Positions 1 to 40,254 of a stretch of 40,279 nucleotides of DNA are shown one piece after another. Source of the stretch: a virus; the IMG/VR virus record IMGVR_UViG_3300026118_000026, positions 1 through 40,279 of that record. One strand, 5' to 3'. Each line of letters starts with the position of its first letter. Position 1 is the first letter of the stretch. The translations under genes and the position numbers were made by a program. The notes beneath the pieces are model-generated. The model saw nothing but the letters and a program-made list of their open reading frames with translations. It did no database searches and was not told the DNA's origin.

Positions 1-16
1 CTGGTTCATTAAGCTG

Positions 17-45
17 TTGTGGAACGCCACCGCTTTCGGCTATCA
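17..45 (+). promoter_or_regulatory. Likely original host promoter of the tRNA-Gly gene
   Basis: TTGTGG (17-22) and CTATCA (40-45) are separated by 17 bp, and the tRNA 5' half begins at 60, a normal distance for a tRNA leader. This is chromosomal DNA outside the prophage. After integration it can transcribe only the tRNA 5' half and then phage DNA toward hicAB. The boxes are imperfect, so the call is moderate. Confidence 0.5.
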
Positions 46-59
46 GGCCGACCTCCGGC

Positions 60-99
60 GCGGGCGTAGCATAGTGGTAATGCTCTAGCCTTCCAAGCT
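60..99 (+). repeat. attL: 40-bp duplicated 5' half of tRNA-Gly
   Basis: These bases are identical to 40181-40220. Identity starts exactly at tRNA nucleotide 1 (the preceding base differs, c against t) and ends in the 3' strand of the anticodon stem. It covers acceptor 5' strand, D arm and anticodon loop. The 3' half is absent here, so this copy cannot make a tRNA. Confidence 0.93.
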
Positions 100-130: not shown

Positions 131-138
131 TGTAAAAC
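131..138 (+). other. Candidate integrase arm-type site (left arm)
   Basis: TGTAAAAC occurs here, 32 bp inside attL, and twice on the right arm at 40127-40134 and 40139-40146 in the same orientation. Small direct repeats flanking the core are typical integrase arm sites. The assignment is inference from position and repetition. Confidence 0.4.
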
Positions 139-4004: not shown

Positions 4005-5375
4005 TCAGCGCGTCGCGCCGAGCTGGGCCAGCGCCGCCACGGCGTCGGCTTTCATGCGTCCGGCGATGAACTGGGCGCCGCCGGCCGTGTAATGCTTGCC
4101 GTCGCCGCCGGGATTGATGTCGGTGAGATAGTTGGCATCGCCGCCCGTCGTCGTGATCATGGTCGGGCTCGCGAAGGTGTCGATCAGGATCACGCGGGGA
4201 TCGCCGTTCGCCGCCGCCAGCACGCCCGCCTTGATCGCGTCGTTCCGGCCGGTCGTCATCGTCGTCGAGCTCGACTGGAAGGTCGAGAAGAAGAGGATGA
4301 TCGCGCGCGGCTGTCGCGCCATGATTGCAGATACGCCCGTGGTCACCGCCGCTTGCAGCGCCGATGTCGAAGCCTGGTAATCGTTGATCGAACCGTGAAG
4401 GACGATCAGATGCTGGTCGCCGATCCGAGACACGTCGAGATCGCCATTATTGATCCGGTCGAGCTTGGTGTGGCCTTGCGGATCGGCCTGCACCCAGCCA
4501 GATCCGCCCATCCCCTGAATCATCAGGTGCGGCAGGCCCATGGCGATGCCGAACTGCGGGGACAGCGGCGCGGTAGGGTCGTCGCTCGCTCCGGTCGCGG
4601 TCAGGTTCGCGCCCGCGATCCAGCTGTCACCGAAGATTGTCGCCTTGATGCTGTCGTCGCCGAGCGCACGGATACGGTCGGTCGATCCGATATTGTAGCC
4701 GTAGATCTGGTGCGTCGAGGTGAAGAAGAACTCGATCTTGCGCCATGCGCGCGTCGCGAAGGTGAGCTTGATATAATGAGGCCCGTCCTGCGGCGTGCTG
4801 TAGCCCGAGGCCGCCACCTCCTGCCCGTCGACGCGGATACGGAGCTTGGCGTTGCCGCTCTGGGCATTCAGGCCGAGGTCGACCGTCGTGCCGTAGAACC
4901 AGAAGCCTTGGCCCCAGCCGCTGCCGCCCGGTCCGCGCGAGCTGCCCGTGTAGAGCGTGCTCGCCGAGCCATAGACCCCGCCGCCGGTATCGACGAGCGC
5001 GGTTCCGAAGGTCGTTACCCGGCTGTCGGTCGCAAGGATGGTCGGATGGCTATAGTCGGCCGAGGTCTGGACGGTCGAATTATTGTAAGCGGTCCCTGCC
5101 GATATCGTCGGGGGCGACGCCATCGTCGCGGGAGCGCTGGCCCGGTTCGCGAGATCGACGATGCGCCGCGCCGTCAGCTGGATATTCTCGCCGAGCTGGC
5201 CTGCCGTCGCCGCCTTGCGGGCGCCGCCCTGATAGACCGGCACCAACTCGCTGCCGGTCAGGGTCGTCGTCGCGGGCAGCCCGATCACGGTGGGATCGAT
5301 CTGCGCGAATACGGGTGAGCTCGCGCACAGCAGCGTCGCCAGCAGCCACACGGCCGCCCGCTGGAAAATGGACAT
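4005..5375 (-). CDS. Exported SGNH/GDSL-family esterase in the phage appendage cluster
   Basis: The 456-residue protein has a signal peptide (VWLLATLLCASSPVFAQ). Residues 30-80 resemble the N-terminal segment of tail-fibre proteins (LPATTTLTGSELVPVYQGG). From about 240 there is an SGNH hydrolase with all blocks visible: GDS with Ser251, the glycine block near 290, GSIND with Asn331, and the DGKH block with Asp425 and His428. Such enzymes often remove O-acetyl groups from capsule, O-antigen or peptidoglycan. I chose the ATG at 5375 because it has the signal peptide and a GGAG site; the open frame extends upstream to 5873 over other genes. Confidence 0.78.
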   Translation of the reverse strand: MSIFQRAAVWLLATLLCASSPVFAQIDPTVIGLPATTTLTGSELVPVYQGGARKAATAGQLGENIQLTARRIVDLANRASAPATMASPPTISAGTAYNNSTVQTSADYSHPTILATDSRVTTFGTALVDTGGGVYGSASTLYTGSSRGPGGSGWGQGFWFYGTTVDLGLNAQSGNAKLRIRVDGQEVAASGYSTPQDGPHYIKLTFATRAWRKIEFFFTSTHQIYGYNIGSTDRIRALGDDSIKATIFGDSWIAGANLTATGASDDPTAPLSPQFGIAMGLPHLMIQGMGGSGWVQADPQGHTKLDRINNGDLDVSRIGDQHLIVLHGSINDYQASTSALQAAVTTGVSAIMARQPRAIILFFSTFQSSSTTMTTGRNDAIKAGVLAAANGDPRVILIDTFASPTMITTTGGDANYLTDINPGGDGKHYTAGGAQFIAGRMKADAVAALAQLGATR

Positions 5376-10648: not shown

Positions 10649-13600
10649 GCCGCCACCTCGGTAGTCGCGAGCGCACCGGGCGTTCCCTCAGCATTCGCGA
10701 GCCGCGCGGCGCGATCGAGCACATTGGCCGTTTTCTCGTCAGCGGTGACGATCTTATCGAGCCGAGCAGTGAGCCTCTCCTTGGTGTCGGCAAGCTCCGC
10801 CCGCACGCTCCGCAACTCAGCCACAAGATCATCGTTGGCGCTCGCGCCGGCGCTGGGCACTTGGCTGGATGAGAATTTCTGCCACCAGCTTTGTGATTGT
10901 CCGGCCGTGGTTGCAGGGCTGCTCACCGCCCCGCCACCGATCACAGCGTAAGTCGTGGCGAGCGCGGCAGCGGCCTGATTCTGCATATCGATCAGGTCGA
11001 GGCTGCTCGTCGCCATGCCGGCCGCCATATCGAGCAGGGCCTTGGACAGGCCGGGCAGAGCCTTCGCAGCATCGATATCGCCCTTCCGCGCTGCGAAATT
11101 GGCCGCGTCGAACTGGCCGAGCAGCTGGGCATAGCTCTGCCCCTGGGACTGGGACAGCCCCCGGATGCGGTTGATCTCCTCGAGGATCGAATCCCCGGCC
11201 GATTTCCAGGCATCGGCGAGCTGCTTGGCGGCCTGCGCGGCTTCCTGCGCACGCTGGGCTGCCGCCGCCCTCCGTTGCTCGGCCGCCGCCTCCGCCGCCT
11301 GCTGATCCTTGAGCGCATAGATCCGCTCAAGCAGCGCGCGGTTCGACGGGTCGAGCGCGTCGATCTCGGCCTTGCGGATCGCGGCGGTATTGCCCTCCAG
11401 CTCCCAGATCTGCTTCTGTAGGTCCTGCCGCTCGCGCAGGATCGCCGCCGCACTCGCCGCGCTGCGCCCGGCATTCGCCACCTCGGCGAAGGCCGGGGCG
11501 ATCTGGAGCAGCTGGGCATAGAGCTGCTGCCCGGCCGCGGTGCCCAGATCCTGCGCCTCGACCAGCGCCCGGAAGCCGGCGATGCTGTCGGGCATCGCGA
11601 CGCCGAGGCTCGCGAACACCTTTCCCAGCGCCGCGGTCTTCGCCGCGGTCTGCTCGGCCTCCGAATAATAGGTCTCGAAATAGGCGCCCGCAGCGCTCTG
11701 ATAATCGGACACGCTGTCGAAGAAGCCCGAGATCGCCATGCTCGCGTCGAGGCCGATCGACTGCGCCGACAGCCCGAGCAGCTGCAGCGAGCTCGTCACC
11801 ACCTCGACCGTCGAGGCGACCCGCACCAGCGTCTCGAAATAGCCCTCGCCGACCTTCTGGAACTTCTCCAGCCCGGCAATCGCGAACTGCGCCATCTTGT
11901 CGGCCTGCGCGCCGAACACGGCTTCGAGCTTCTCCTGGATCTCGTCGCCCGACAGTCCCTTCAGGTCAATCTTGCCGATATCGACGACGAAACTGTCGAG
12001 CTTGGCCGTGATCGCGTCGAGATCGAGCCCGAGCGGCCCGGCGGCGAGCTTGATCGCGTCGCCGAAGCTGGTCAGCAGCAGCCCGAACTGCTGCTCGATA
12101 CTGTCATCGAGATCGCCGAACTTGGTCTTGTATTTGCTGCCGGTGCTGACCCCAAGGAACTTCTTCGTCCTCTTGATGTCGACGAAGCTCTGCCCCGCGA
12201 AGCCCAGATCCTCGATGTCGCCAAAACTCTGCGGGCCGCCGAAGATACCGCTGCCGACCACCTTCGTCTTGGTGCCGAACAGCGAGCCGAAGATCTTGCC
12301 GATCCCGCCGAGGATGTCGCCGAGGACGGGGATCTTGTAGATCACCTTGCTGAACAGCGCCCCCACCGCATGGCCGAGGACCGCGCCGAGCGGTCCGGCC
12401 ATCAGCGATCCGAGCACGCTGCCCACCAGCGCGCCGGGCGCGGCGCCGAGCGCCTTCCCGATTGCGTCGGGCTTGAACCCGGTCTGGACACCGAGCTTGC
12501 CTTCGACATTGTCGAGGCCGTTGCGCAGCACGAGGTTGGTCACCCCGCCGATCTGCGATTCGATATTCTTGAGGCTCGCCGCCATCTGCCGCGACACCGC
12601 GAGCATGTCGGTATCGATATCGCCGAGCAGGTCGAGCGACCGCTTGATACTGTCGCTCTTCGCGTCGCTGTCGCCGAACACGGTGCCCTTGCCGTCATTA
12701 TACTTGGGCGCGGCCCCGCCACCGCCACCGCCGGCGAAGCCCAGAGAGGCCATCACGCCGAGCATCGCCGCGACCAGCGGGAACCCGCCCGGCCCCGCCG
12801 CCGCGAACATGTTCGCCGCGCCCTCGGCAACCGCCACCGCCGTGCGCGCGATCTGCACGATCGTCAGCGCCTTTTCGGCCGCCTCCATCGCCTTGTAGCC
12901 CGCGCTATGCTCCTTGAAGAGCCCCTTCGCCGCCCCGGTGAGGTCGAGCAGCGAGGTGAGCTGCAGGTCGGCCGACTTCTTGATCCCCTGATCGCGGGTA
13001 TAGTTTCCGGCATTGACCTGCTTGTCGATCTCGGCCTGGCGGTCGCCATAGGTCCCCAGGATCTTGACCATGTCGCCCAGCGCCGCACCGCCCTTGCCGA
13101 AGGCCTTGGCCAGGCTGTCGCCGAGAGAGTCTGCCAGTTCCGCCGTCAGCCGCAGGTCGCCGTTGAACTGCGCCTGCGAGGTCGAGAGCTTCTGCATCGC
13201 ATCGGCAAGCGCCACCTGGGTGCGGACATATTCAAGCTGCTGATCGATGTCCCAGCCCTGTGCCTGGGCTTCCTGCCATGCTTTCAGGGTCGCCAGGGCA
13301 TGCACCCGCGCGGCCTCATTCTCGCCGATCAGGCGGGTTTCGAGCGAGATCATGTCGAGACGGTCCTGCGCCGATGACTGCGCGGCATTGAAGCTCGCAT
13401 CGGCCTCGGCCGCCCTCAGTCGCTCACGCGCCGTCCGCTGATCGTCGAGCGCCTGCGTCGCTGCAGCCGCCTCCTTCGCCAGGCCCTGCTGCTGGGCGGC
13501 TTGCAGGGCTACGAGCAGCGGCAGATCGGCGATCCGGTCGCGCACCTGCTCGGCCGCGCGCGCCGCCGGCACCAGTCCGGCCGCGACCAGCCTGTTGACT

Positions 13601-38755: not shown

Positions 38756-38964
38756 ACGCGCCCACATCCTCCGCCAACGGCGTCCGCGCCTATCCCGGCA
38801 AGGTCGCGATCCGCCATGTCGTCGAAGCCGCGCGCAGCCTCGGGCTTGACGTGGGCGGGATCGAGGTTTCCCCTGACGGCACGATTCGCGTGATCGACGC
38901 CCGCACCCTGCCGGCGAAGCCGCAATCGCTGTTCGACCAGCTGGAAGCCGAGGGCAAGATTTGA
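38752..38964 (+). CDS. Small protein before integrase, possible excisionase
   Basis: The 70-residue product has a helical start and a beta hairpin (GGIEVSPDGTIRVIDARTL), ending SLFDQLEAEGKI. It is overlapped by the integrase start (TTGA), which couples them. Small genes in this place are often recombination directionality factors; no direct proof here. Confidence 0.55.
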   Translation: MNAPTSSANGVRAYPGKVAIRHVVEAARSLGLDVGGIEVSPDGTIRVIDARTLPAKPQSLFDQLEAEGKI

Positions 38965-40082
38965 TCGAAGGCGTTCACTACGTCCGCATTGCAAAGCCGG
39001 GCAAGCCGATCCGCTGGTATGTCTATGCATGGCGCGGCGGCCCCTGCATCCTGAAGCTGGACAGCCCGACAAAGCCCAAGCTGGGCAGGGCGGAGATCGC
39101 CGCCATCGCGGCCGCGCATGAGGCGCAGAAAGCGGTCAAGGCCGACACGCTGGGCGGCATGGGTCGCGAGTGGCGCGGCAACCCCTCGGACCTGTCGACC
39201 GCCAGCCCCGAATGGCGCGGCTTGGCGAAGTCGACTCGCGCGCTGTGGAGCGGCTATCTCGACGCGATCGAAGCCAAATGGGGCTCAACCCCGCTGGCGC
39301 TGTGGAACGATCCCCGCATGGTCGCCAAGGTCGTTGCATGGCGCGACGAACGCGCCGCGACGCCCCGCGCCGCCGATATCGGCGTGCAGGTGCTCGCCGA
39401 GCTGCTGAGCTGGGGGAAGCTGCGCGCCAAGGTGCTGCTCAACGTCGCGGCCGACGTGCCCGGTATTTACCGCGCCGCCGATCGCGCCGAAATCATCTGG
39501 ACCGAGGATGATCTGGAACGCGCCAAGGCCTCCGCGATCGCGCTGCACCGCGAAAGCGTCATGGACGCGATCAGGCTCGCCTGTCTCACCGGATTCCGGC
39601 GCGGCGATCTCGCGGCCCTGACCTTCGACGAAGTCTTCGATCACGCCATCATCCGCACGGCCGTCAAGAAGAGCAGAGGGCGGCGGCGCCGCGCCGTCGT
39701 GCCCGTGATCCCAGCGCTGTCCGAGCTGATCGCCGAGCTGCGCACGCGGCCGCGCAAGGCCGGCGTCAATACCTTGCTCGTCACAAGCCGGGGGACGCCC
39801 TGGGCGCCGGCCAGCCTTACCGAGGCGGTGATCGCGATCACCCGCCACGCGCATATCGTTCAGCCGGCGGTGCCCGAACTCGACATCCCCGAGAAGCGCA
39901 AGCACCTCCACGATTGCCGGGGCACCTTCGTGACGCACCTGTGCCGCACCGATCTGACTAACGACGACATAGCCCGCGTCGTCGCATGGTCCCCCGAAAG
40001 CGTCGACCGCATCCGCCGGACCTATGTCGACGACGCGGCGATCGTCGTATCGCTCGCGAAGCGCATCGCGAACAAAGTTTGA
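38961..40082 (+). CDS. int: Tyrosine site-specific integrase
   Basis: The 373-residue recombinase has the catalytic set: Arg in LTGFRRGDLAAL (about 213-214), basic KKSRGRRRR with a Lys near 236, HxxR as His317-Asp-Cys-Arg320, Trp343 in VVAWS in place of the usual second His, and Tyr355 in IRRTYVDD. It recombines attP with the tRNA-Gly gene. It starts at TTG 38961, overlapping the upstream stop. Its own stop overlaps the -35 box of a promoter facing the tRNA. Confidence 0.95.
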   Translation: MIEGVHYVRIAKPGKPIRWYVYAWRGGPCILKLDSPTKPKLGRAEIAAIAAAHEAQKAVKADTLGGMGREWRGNPSDLSTASPEWRGLAKSTRALWSGYLDAIEAKWGSTPLALWNDPRMVAKVVAWRDERAATPRAADIGVQVLAELLSWGKLRAKVLLNVAADVPGIYRAADRAEIIWTEDDLERAKASAIALHRESVMDAIRLACLTGFRRGDLAALTFDEVFDHAIIRTAVKKSRGRRRRAVVPVIPALSELIAELRTRPRKAGVNTLLVTSRGTPWAPASLTEAVIAITRHAHIVQPAVPELDIPEKRKHLHDCRGTFVTHLCRTDLTNDDIARVVAWSPESVDRIRRTYVDDAAIVVSLAKRIANKV

Positions 40083-40107
40083 CGGCCAGCGGGGAGCGGG
40101 CTAATAG
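40079..40107 (+). promoter_or_regulatory. Phage-borne promoter reading into the tRNA-Gly gene
   Basis: TTGACG (40079-40084) and TAATAG (40102-40107) with exactly 17 bp between form a near-consensus promoter. It points at the tRNA at 40181. The -35 box includes the integrase stop. Since the host promoter is now at the other end of the prophage, this one probably transcribes the restored tRNA. Confidence 0.65.
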
Positions 40108-40115
40108 CCTCCTCC

Positions 40116-40147
40116 ACAGGGCGCTCTGTAAAACGCCCTGTAAAACG
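40116..40147. repeat. Right attachment arm: hairpin and two arm-type repeats
   Basis: CTGTAAAACG is repeated at 40126-40135 and 40138-40147 with 12-bp period. ACAGGGCG (40116-40123) pairs with CGCCCTGT (40134-40141). There is no T run, so this is not a standard terminator. The repeats are likely integrase or excisionase contacts and match TGTAAAAC at 131-138. Confidence 0.5.
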
Positions 40148-40180
40148 AGGTAGCCGAAAGGCCGCTAAGTGATTGGAAAT

Positions 40181-40220
40181 GCGGGCGTAGCATAGTGGTA
40201 ATGCTCTAGCCTTCCAAGCT
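40181..40220 (+). repeat. attR: 40-bp core inside the intact tRNA-Gly
   Basis: The sequence is identical to 60-99. Strand exchange must lie within this core, probably around the anticodon stem-loop, whose two strands form the usual inverted core sites. The 5' half of the tRNA here is phage-derived and the 3' half is host. Confidence 0.93.
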
Positions 40221-40254
40221 AGCTAGGAGGGTTCGATTCCCTTCGCCCGCTCCA
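40181..40254 (+). tRNA. tRNA-Gly (anticodon UCC)
   Basis: The 74-nt gene folds as a full cloverleaf: acceptor GCGGGCG/CGCCCGC, D stem GCAT/ATGC, anticodon stem CTAGC/GCTAG around CTTCCAA (anticodon TCC at 40213-40215), T arm with TTCGATT loop, and encoded CCA (40252-40254). It reads GGA and GGG codons. The 5' half comes from the phage, yet it is complete, so integration does not destroy it. Confidence 0.97.

Follow-up and report, generated by a model that had tools for sequence, protein, structure and literature searches.

From which promoter can a tRNA gene be expressed after an integrated phage has replaced its 5' half and all of the DNA upstream of it? This question is raised by the window, i.e., the whole stretch of 40,279 nt that was analyzed here, a virus record in which host DNA flanks a prophage, with 59 bases to its left and, beyond the tRNA, 25 bases to its right. 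A scheme for the sublocations of integration within tDNA, which the Islander paper cites, was reportedly introduced by Williams in 2002. Integration that restores the 5' half of the tRNA gene is a known but rare kind; in the Islander database, a 5' tDNA fragment is given for 159 of 3919 islands (PMC4383910).

The element is the prophage of a temperate phage that infects a Sphingomonas-like host, and genes for terminase, portal, capsid, and primase/helicase characterize it as a tailed phage. It could not be assigned to a named phage, as INPHARED yielded only distant integrases, with about 32% identity or less among the matches listed. ARAGORN predicted a single tRNA gene in the 40 kb, encoding tRNA-Gly(UCC) with the anticodon TCC, and no second one. 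A direct repeat of exactly 40 bp (E 9e-16, both copies on the plus strand) comprises nucleotides 1 to 40 of this tRNA. The claim of the preliminary description that the duplication begins at tRNA nucleotide 1 was thus confirmed, and the fragment lies upstream of the intact gene in the same orientation. The integrase gene is an uninterrupted frame that points towards the tRNA and ends before attR, 98 bp upstream of the tRNA. Its PF00589 score exceeds the family cut-off, and R213/R214, H317-R320, and Y355 are invariant in the alignment of the integrase family. The motif GTAAAAC has three copies in the 40 kb, one of which follows the left core after 33 bp and two of which lie beside the right core, and pairs similar to the latter are found in most relatives. 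All three motifs are likely to be integrase arm sites, two of which fall inside the presumed leader of the tRNA. The att structure is established by these features, which are compiled in Table 1. Just inside attL, the window also contains a HicAB-like toxin-antitoxin pair (269–864). The antitoxin is HicB-like (PF15919, E 6e-26), while the small frame upstream of it resembles HicA by eye and has no Pfam match. Such a pair is also found at the attL site of Sphingomonas sp. YR710, and it is absent from most other members.

Table 1. Features at the two ends of the prophage (coordinates refer to the window)
Feature	Position	Strand	Evidence
Host DNA adjoining tRNA-Gly(UCC) on its 5' side in an uninfected chromosome	1–59	+	Contiguous with the intact tRNA in uninfected G036, G038, and G035
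Displaced native tRNA promoter, TTGTGG-N16-GCTATCAGG	17–47	+	8.9 bits, host tRNA-promoter model
attL core, inactive 5' remnant of the tRNA (40 nt)	60–99	+	100% identical to 40181–40220; the 40-nt fragment recurs at 11 further attL sites
GTAAAAC, likely integrase arm-type site, left arm	132–138	+	Most other attL sites have a comparable motif some 33 nt beyond the core; putative role
Tyrosine integrase gene	38961–40082	+	PF00589 E 3.5e-7; PHROG 1 E 1.2e-21
Phage promoter-like site TTGACG-N15-GCTAATAGC facing the tRNA, -35 overlapping the integrase stop	40079–40108	+	16.7 bits
Presumed 5' leader, phage promoter to tRNA	40109–40180	+	By position; presumed processing
Two GTAAAAC, 12 bp apart (40128–40134, 40140–40146), likely integrase arm-type sites	40128–40146	+	Putative role
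attR core, tRNA nucleotides 1–40 joined to phage DNA upstream	40181–40220	+	Repeat identity
Restored tRNA-Gly(UCC), upstream side phage, downstream side host	40181–40254	+	ARAGORN

The side from which the 5' half is supplied was determined by comparison with uninfected relatives. Sphingomonas sp. YR710 is a related lysogen, and its genus group was searched with an empty site that was built by joining the two host flanks. The left flank together with the whole tRNA was found uninterrupted in three genomes, G036 (94% identity, query 16–133), G038 (91%), and G035 (89%, 1–133), in none of which the 25-nt right flank aligned; G029 and G032 matched the left flank and the tRNA more weakly. Local alignments of positions 1–59 to the DNA upstream of the tRNA in these three genomes scored 50–59, which was reached by none of 200 shuffled sequences, whereas positions 40083–40180 scored only 14–20, and hence none of these relatives resembled the phage side rather than the left flank. 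Because the uninfected relatives carry DNA like that of 1–59 directly upstream of their intact tRNA, it is the phage that supplies tRNA nucleotides 1–40 and everything upstream, as had been claimed. An element at the same place as window positions 17–47 scores 11.4–14.6 bits in the uninfected relatives with the host promoter model described below, and by this comparison the native promoter has been stranded 40 kb from the restored tRNA. An ordinary prophage that restores the 3' half and leaves the native promoter in place would be by far the commoner case, accounting for 3760 of the 3919 Islander islands. However, a fragment of nucleotides 1–40 upstream of the full gene, together with the relatives that match 1–59, refutes this reading, and the chance that the locus has been misread in this way is negligible.

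What replaces the lost promoter? A two-block promoter model was trained on the upstream regions of 53 native non-glycine tRNA genes from Altererythrobacter xiamenensis and Sphingobium faniae, and it converged on TTGaCn-N15-gcTAtnggc as the sphingomonad tRNA promoter. With this model, the site at 40079 had the top score of the whole window on both strands, and only one other site reached at least 14 bits. The site therefore exceeds chance expectation. The preliminary description had proposed a near-consensus promoter, TTGACG-N17-TAATAG. The hexamers, their spacing, and the overlap of TTGACG (40079–40084) with the integrase stop codon TGA (40080–40082) are present, and the designation holds for the consensus of the host group. 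It does not hold for the E. coli consensus, of which TAATAG (40102–40107) matches only three of six positions and lacks the T at position 6. A generic sigma-70 scan, the consensus of which is that of E. coli and not of the host group, found a promoter at neither end of the window. Taken together, the host-specific consensus and the comparison of loci support well that positions 40079–40108 represent a promoter of the host tRNA type. Short matches of 28–32 nt were observed to L083 and L071, which may hint at a capture of the promoter from a host tRNA-Gly locus.

The same pattern also occurs outside of prophages. A search of 18 genomes for TTGAC-N15-GTGGCANT gave 22 matches, versus 8 for the reversed pattern. 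All 22 were located upstream of an intact tRNA-Gly or its attL fragment, and in L096 and L105 the element lies 12–13 nt before tRNA-Gly with no integrase tail in sight. On these grounds, the element resembles the native tRNA-Gly promoter of sphingomonads.

Relatives of the integrase were found 9 times in IMG/VR and 42 times in the genome collection, the latter nearly all in Sphingomonadales. In about 30 loci, a restored tRNA-Gly (UCC or CCC) follows shortly after the integrase gene and is read in the same direction. Twelve attL sites, that of the window among them, were examined, and each has a displaced fragment of 40 nt; the ends of the elements are 42–59 kb apart in Sphingomonas YR710 and SRS2, Novosphingobium mangrovi, and Sphingobium faniae. 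The promoter-like site is conserved as well: among 32 loci, there are 31 in which the top-scoring model site of the 160 nt preceding the tRNA begins with TTGAC or TTGCGC and is positioned 95–124 nt upstream. In the roughly 30 loci with a restored 5' half, TTGAC is mostly found at this distance and is followed by GTGGCA or a variant of it. In L102, L109, and L110, integrase-tail remnants or phage-type right-arm sequences are present upstream of the attL fragments, and elements thus appear to stack in tandem, each newcomer displacing the previous promoter. One locus (L029) is on a metagenome-assembled contig labelled Salinicola (Halomonadaceae), yet its integrase and tRNA are nearly identical to those of Altererythrobacter, and the label is probably a binning error.

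In most relatives, the promoter would be written into the 3' end of the integrase gene itself. When the integrase stop codon is at most 58 nt away from the tRNA, the site falls on conserved C-terminal codons (Y-V-D-...-V-A-L/I-G-E-R). All 24 integrases of this kind with a restored 5' half, a set that includes L009, the contig of which ends before the tRNA, spell TTGAC together with a GCA-type -10 element, although on average GTT accounts for 22% of the Val codons and GCA for 19% of the Ala codons in these genes. In contrast, this combination was found in none of 11 integrases for which the tRNA is 3'-restored, antisense, unrestored, or absent (Fisher p 2e-9, which overstates independence because the loci share descent). 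As the C-terminal peptide is similar in the 5'-restoring and the other groups, much of the codon difference is at synonymous positions. The embedded sites have modest scores of 6.5–14.7 bits in the host model, and many are individually non-significant. In eight integrases with a stop codon at least 98 nt away from the tRNA (the window, L003, L007, L021, L028, L043, L045, and L046), the full element was never found in the gene, and the site is located outside of it. The integrase tree revealed several separate losses of the promoter codons. The clearest case is L032 (10001–11225), which restores the 3' half, with a fragment of nucleotides 29–74 downstream, and lacks the promoter codons, whereas its neighbor in the tree, L037, restores the 5' half (support 94/84); the orientation of integration has flipped within the integrase family. 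In Sphingomonas sp. Y57 (L022, about 11110–11260), the tRNA beside the integrase lacks its 5' half and the integrase gene lacks the promoter codons, which may reflect the decay of a spare copy. The possibility that this strain is a lysogen without an intact UCC tRNA was set aside, since its other copy, at the end of L083, is cut by the contig end and may be intact.

Based on these comparisons, we propose that the tyrosine integrase inserts the phage into tRNA-Gly(UCC) around the anticodon stem-loop, and that the right end of the phage brings along a host-type tRNA promoter about 100 nt upstream, which would keep the tRNA expressed. The leader with its two likely arm sites would presumably be removed by RNase P. 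In most relatives, the promoter would overlap the last integrase codons and be maintained by constraint on synonymous sites, whereas in the window phage and several others it would lie outside of the gene. We regard this explanation as a whole, 5'-half-restoring integration combined with a phage-supplied promoter of the host type, as highly probable.

The main rival is read-through, in which the tRNA would be transcribed from int or other rightward phage genes and TTGACG would be incidental. Int is codirectional with the nearby tRNA in the window, and no terminator-like site was found between the two genes there. However, int is usually silent in lysogens, no other site of the window scores as high in the host model as that at 40079, and the codons are locked only when they face the tRNA. 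Moreover, L003 and L007 retain TTGACG at -104 and -115, respectively, although leftward genes occupy 2–2.5 kb between int and the tRNA there. These two loci argue against read-through as a general answer, and we consider it unlikely. Even less probable is a role of the TTGAC element as a recombination site of the att region (arm, Xis, or IHF). Its roughly fixed distance from the core and its position beside the likely arm sites would fit such a role, but L054–L056, which are 3'-restoring and lie beside tRNA-Pro in the opposite orientation, have kept arm-type motifs and lack the element, which argues for a promoter. In addition, the element conforms to the promoter consensus of native, unrelated tRNA genes, and it precedes tRNA-Gly without any integrase in L096 and L105.

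Alternatively, the promoter could serve the phage: in the excised circle it faces the left end and would read across attP into genes such as hicAB, and the effect on the tRNA would be a by-product. The HicAB-like pairs of the window and of YR710 do have the right direction. However, there is no conservation of the genes at the left end, and the first sizeable ORF of L077, L086, L088, L092, and L110 is in the opposite direction (judged from ORF calls only), leaving this explanation with little probability. For the same lack of conservation, a service of the displaced native promoter or of an attP promoter to a conserved left-end gene (hicAB) was rejected.

If the phage-supplied promoter is used, the supply of tRNA-Gly(UCC) after integration would rely on the prophage end. 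In the drafts of the closest lysogens, Sphingomonas YR710 and SRS2, similarity searches revealed one intact UCC gene each, namely the restored one. The gene thus is apparently single-copy in these relatives, to which the count applies, and dependence of the lysogen on the prophage end is likely. The preliminary description had further suggested that such a dependence favors keeping this end of the prophage. This is in agreement with one relic, G023 (C11; L183, about 4250–4434), in which an intact tRNA-Gly(CCC) follows a short integrase-tail relic with TTGAC-N15-GTGGCACT and no other integrase sequence remains upstream in L183. Here, the prophage seems to be gone and its promoter-bearing end to have been left behind; that selection retains the site would be the corresponding explanation. 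Another junction was observed in G030 (L070, about 1390–1574), where a native tRNA-Gly promoter is joined to phage right-arm sequence with two GTAAACC motifs directly before an intact tRNA, without an integrase, and it is likely the deletion scar of a former prophage. For the family as a whole, we lean towards the view that a dual-coding 3' end has arisen in a whole family of integrases, which belongs to Sphingomonadales and also has a member in Asticcacaulis. This end would encode the conserved tail of the enzyme and, at the same time, a promoter replacing that of an essential tRNA-Gly gene, and prophage relics would persist as the lasting promoter of this gene.

Several known systems share parts of this arrangement. 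The Islander islands with a 5' fragment likewise have the displaced fragment upstream, the intact tRNA at the far end, a tyrosine integrase, and a site in the anticodon region. However, in the available part of that paper they are counted and no replacement promoter is described, whereas conservation of a promoter-like site is a feature of the present family. In archaea, integration of pTN3 separates the rebuilt tRNA from its original promoter (PMC5495485), and for pTN3-like integrases, the attP of which also holds the tRNA 5' half, a review has the rebuilt tRNA expressed from the integrase promoter (PMC5495485, PMC8371274). There, integration splits the integrase gene and places the tRNA behind its promoter, whereas in the present family int remains whole and the promoter is at or in its 3' end. 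In the tRNA-dependent lysogeny of actinobacteriophages, an essential tRNA of the lysogen also depends on phage DNA, but the core is short, its integration destroys the tRNA, and a complete tRNA comes from a phage gene (PMC10865867), unlike the 40-bp core that rebuilds the tRNA here, with the phage supplying the promoter. ICEKp1 exemplifies state-dependent promoter switching (PMC13023037); as in the present case, integration rewires promoters between the tRNA gene and the element, but there the host tRNA promoter drives int, whereas here DNA of the element would drive the host tRNA. The new aspect, as judged from the sequences, is the conserved and often dual-coded putative replacement promoter. 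A literature search, which covered subscription papers thinly and is thus weak evidence, yielded no replacement promoter in bacteria and no report of a conserved one in the 3' end of an integrase gene.

Elements with a tRNA 5' half are a minority that usually has only been counted, and these findings show how they may avoid silencing an essential gene, namely by bringing along a promoter of the host type. The family would also offer a natural case of a promoter within a protein-coding sequence, with relatives in the opposite orientation as built-in controls. If the proposed mechanism is true, the viability of the host would depend on one end of a prophage, and remnants of that end are predicted to persist.
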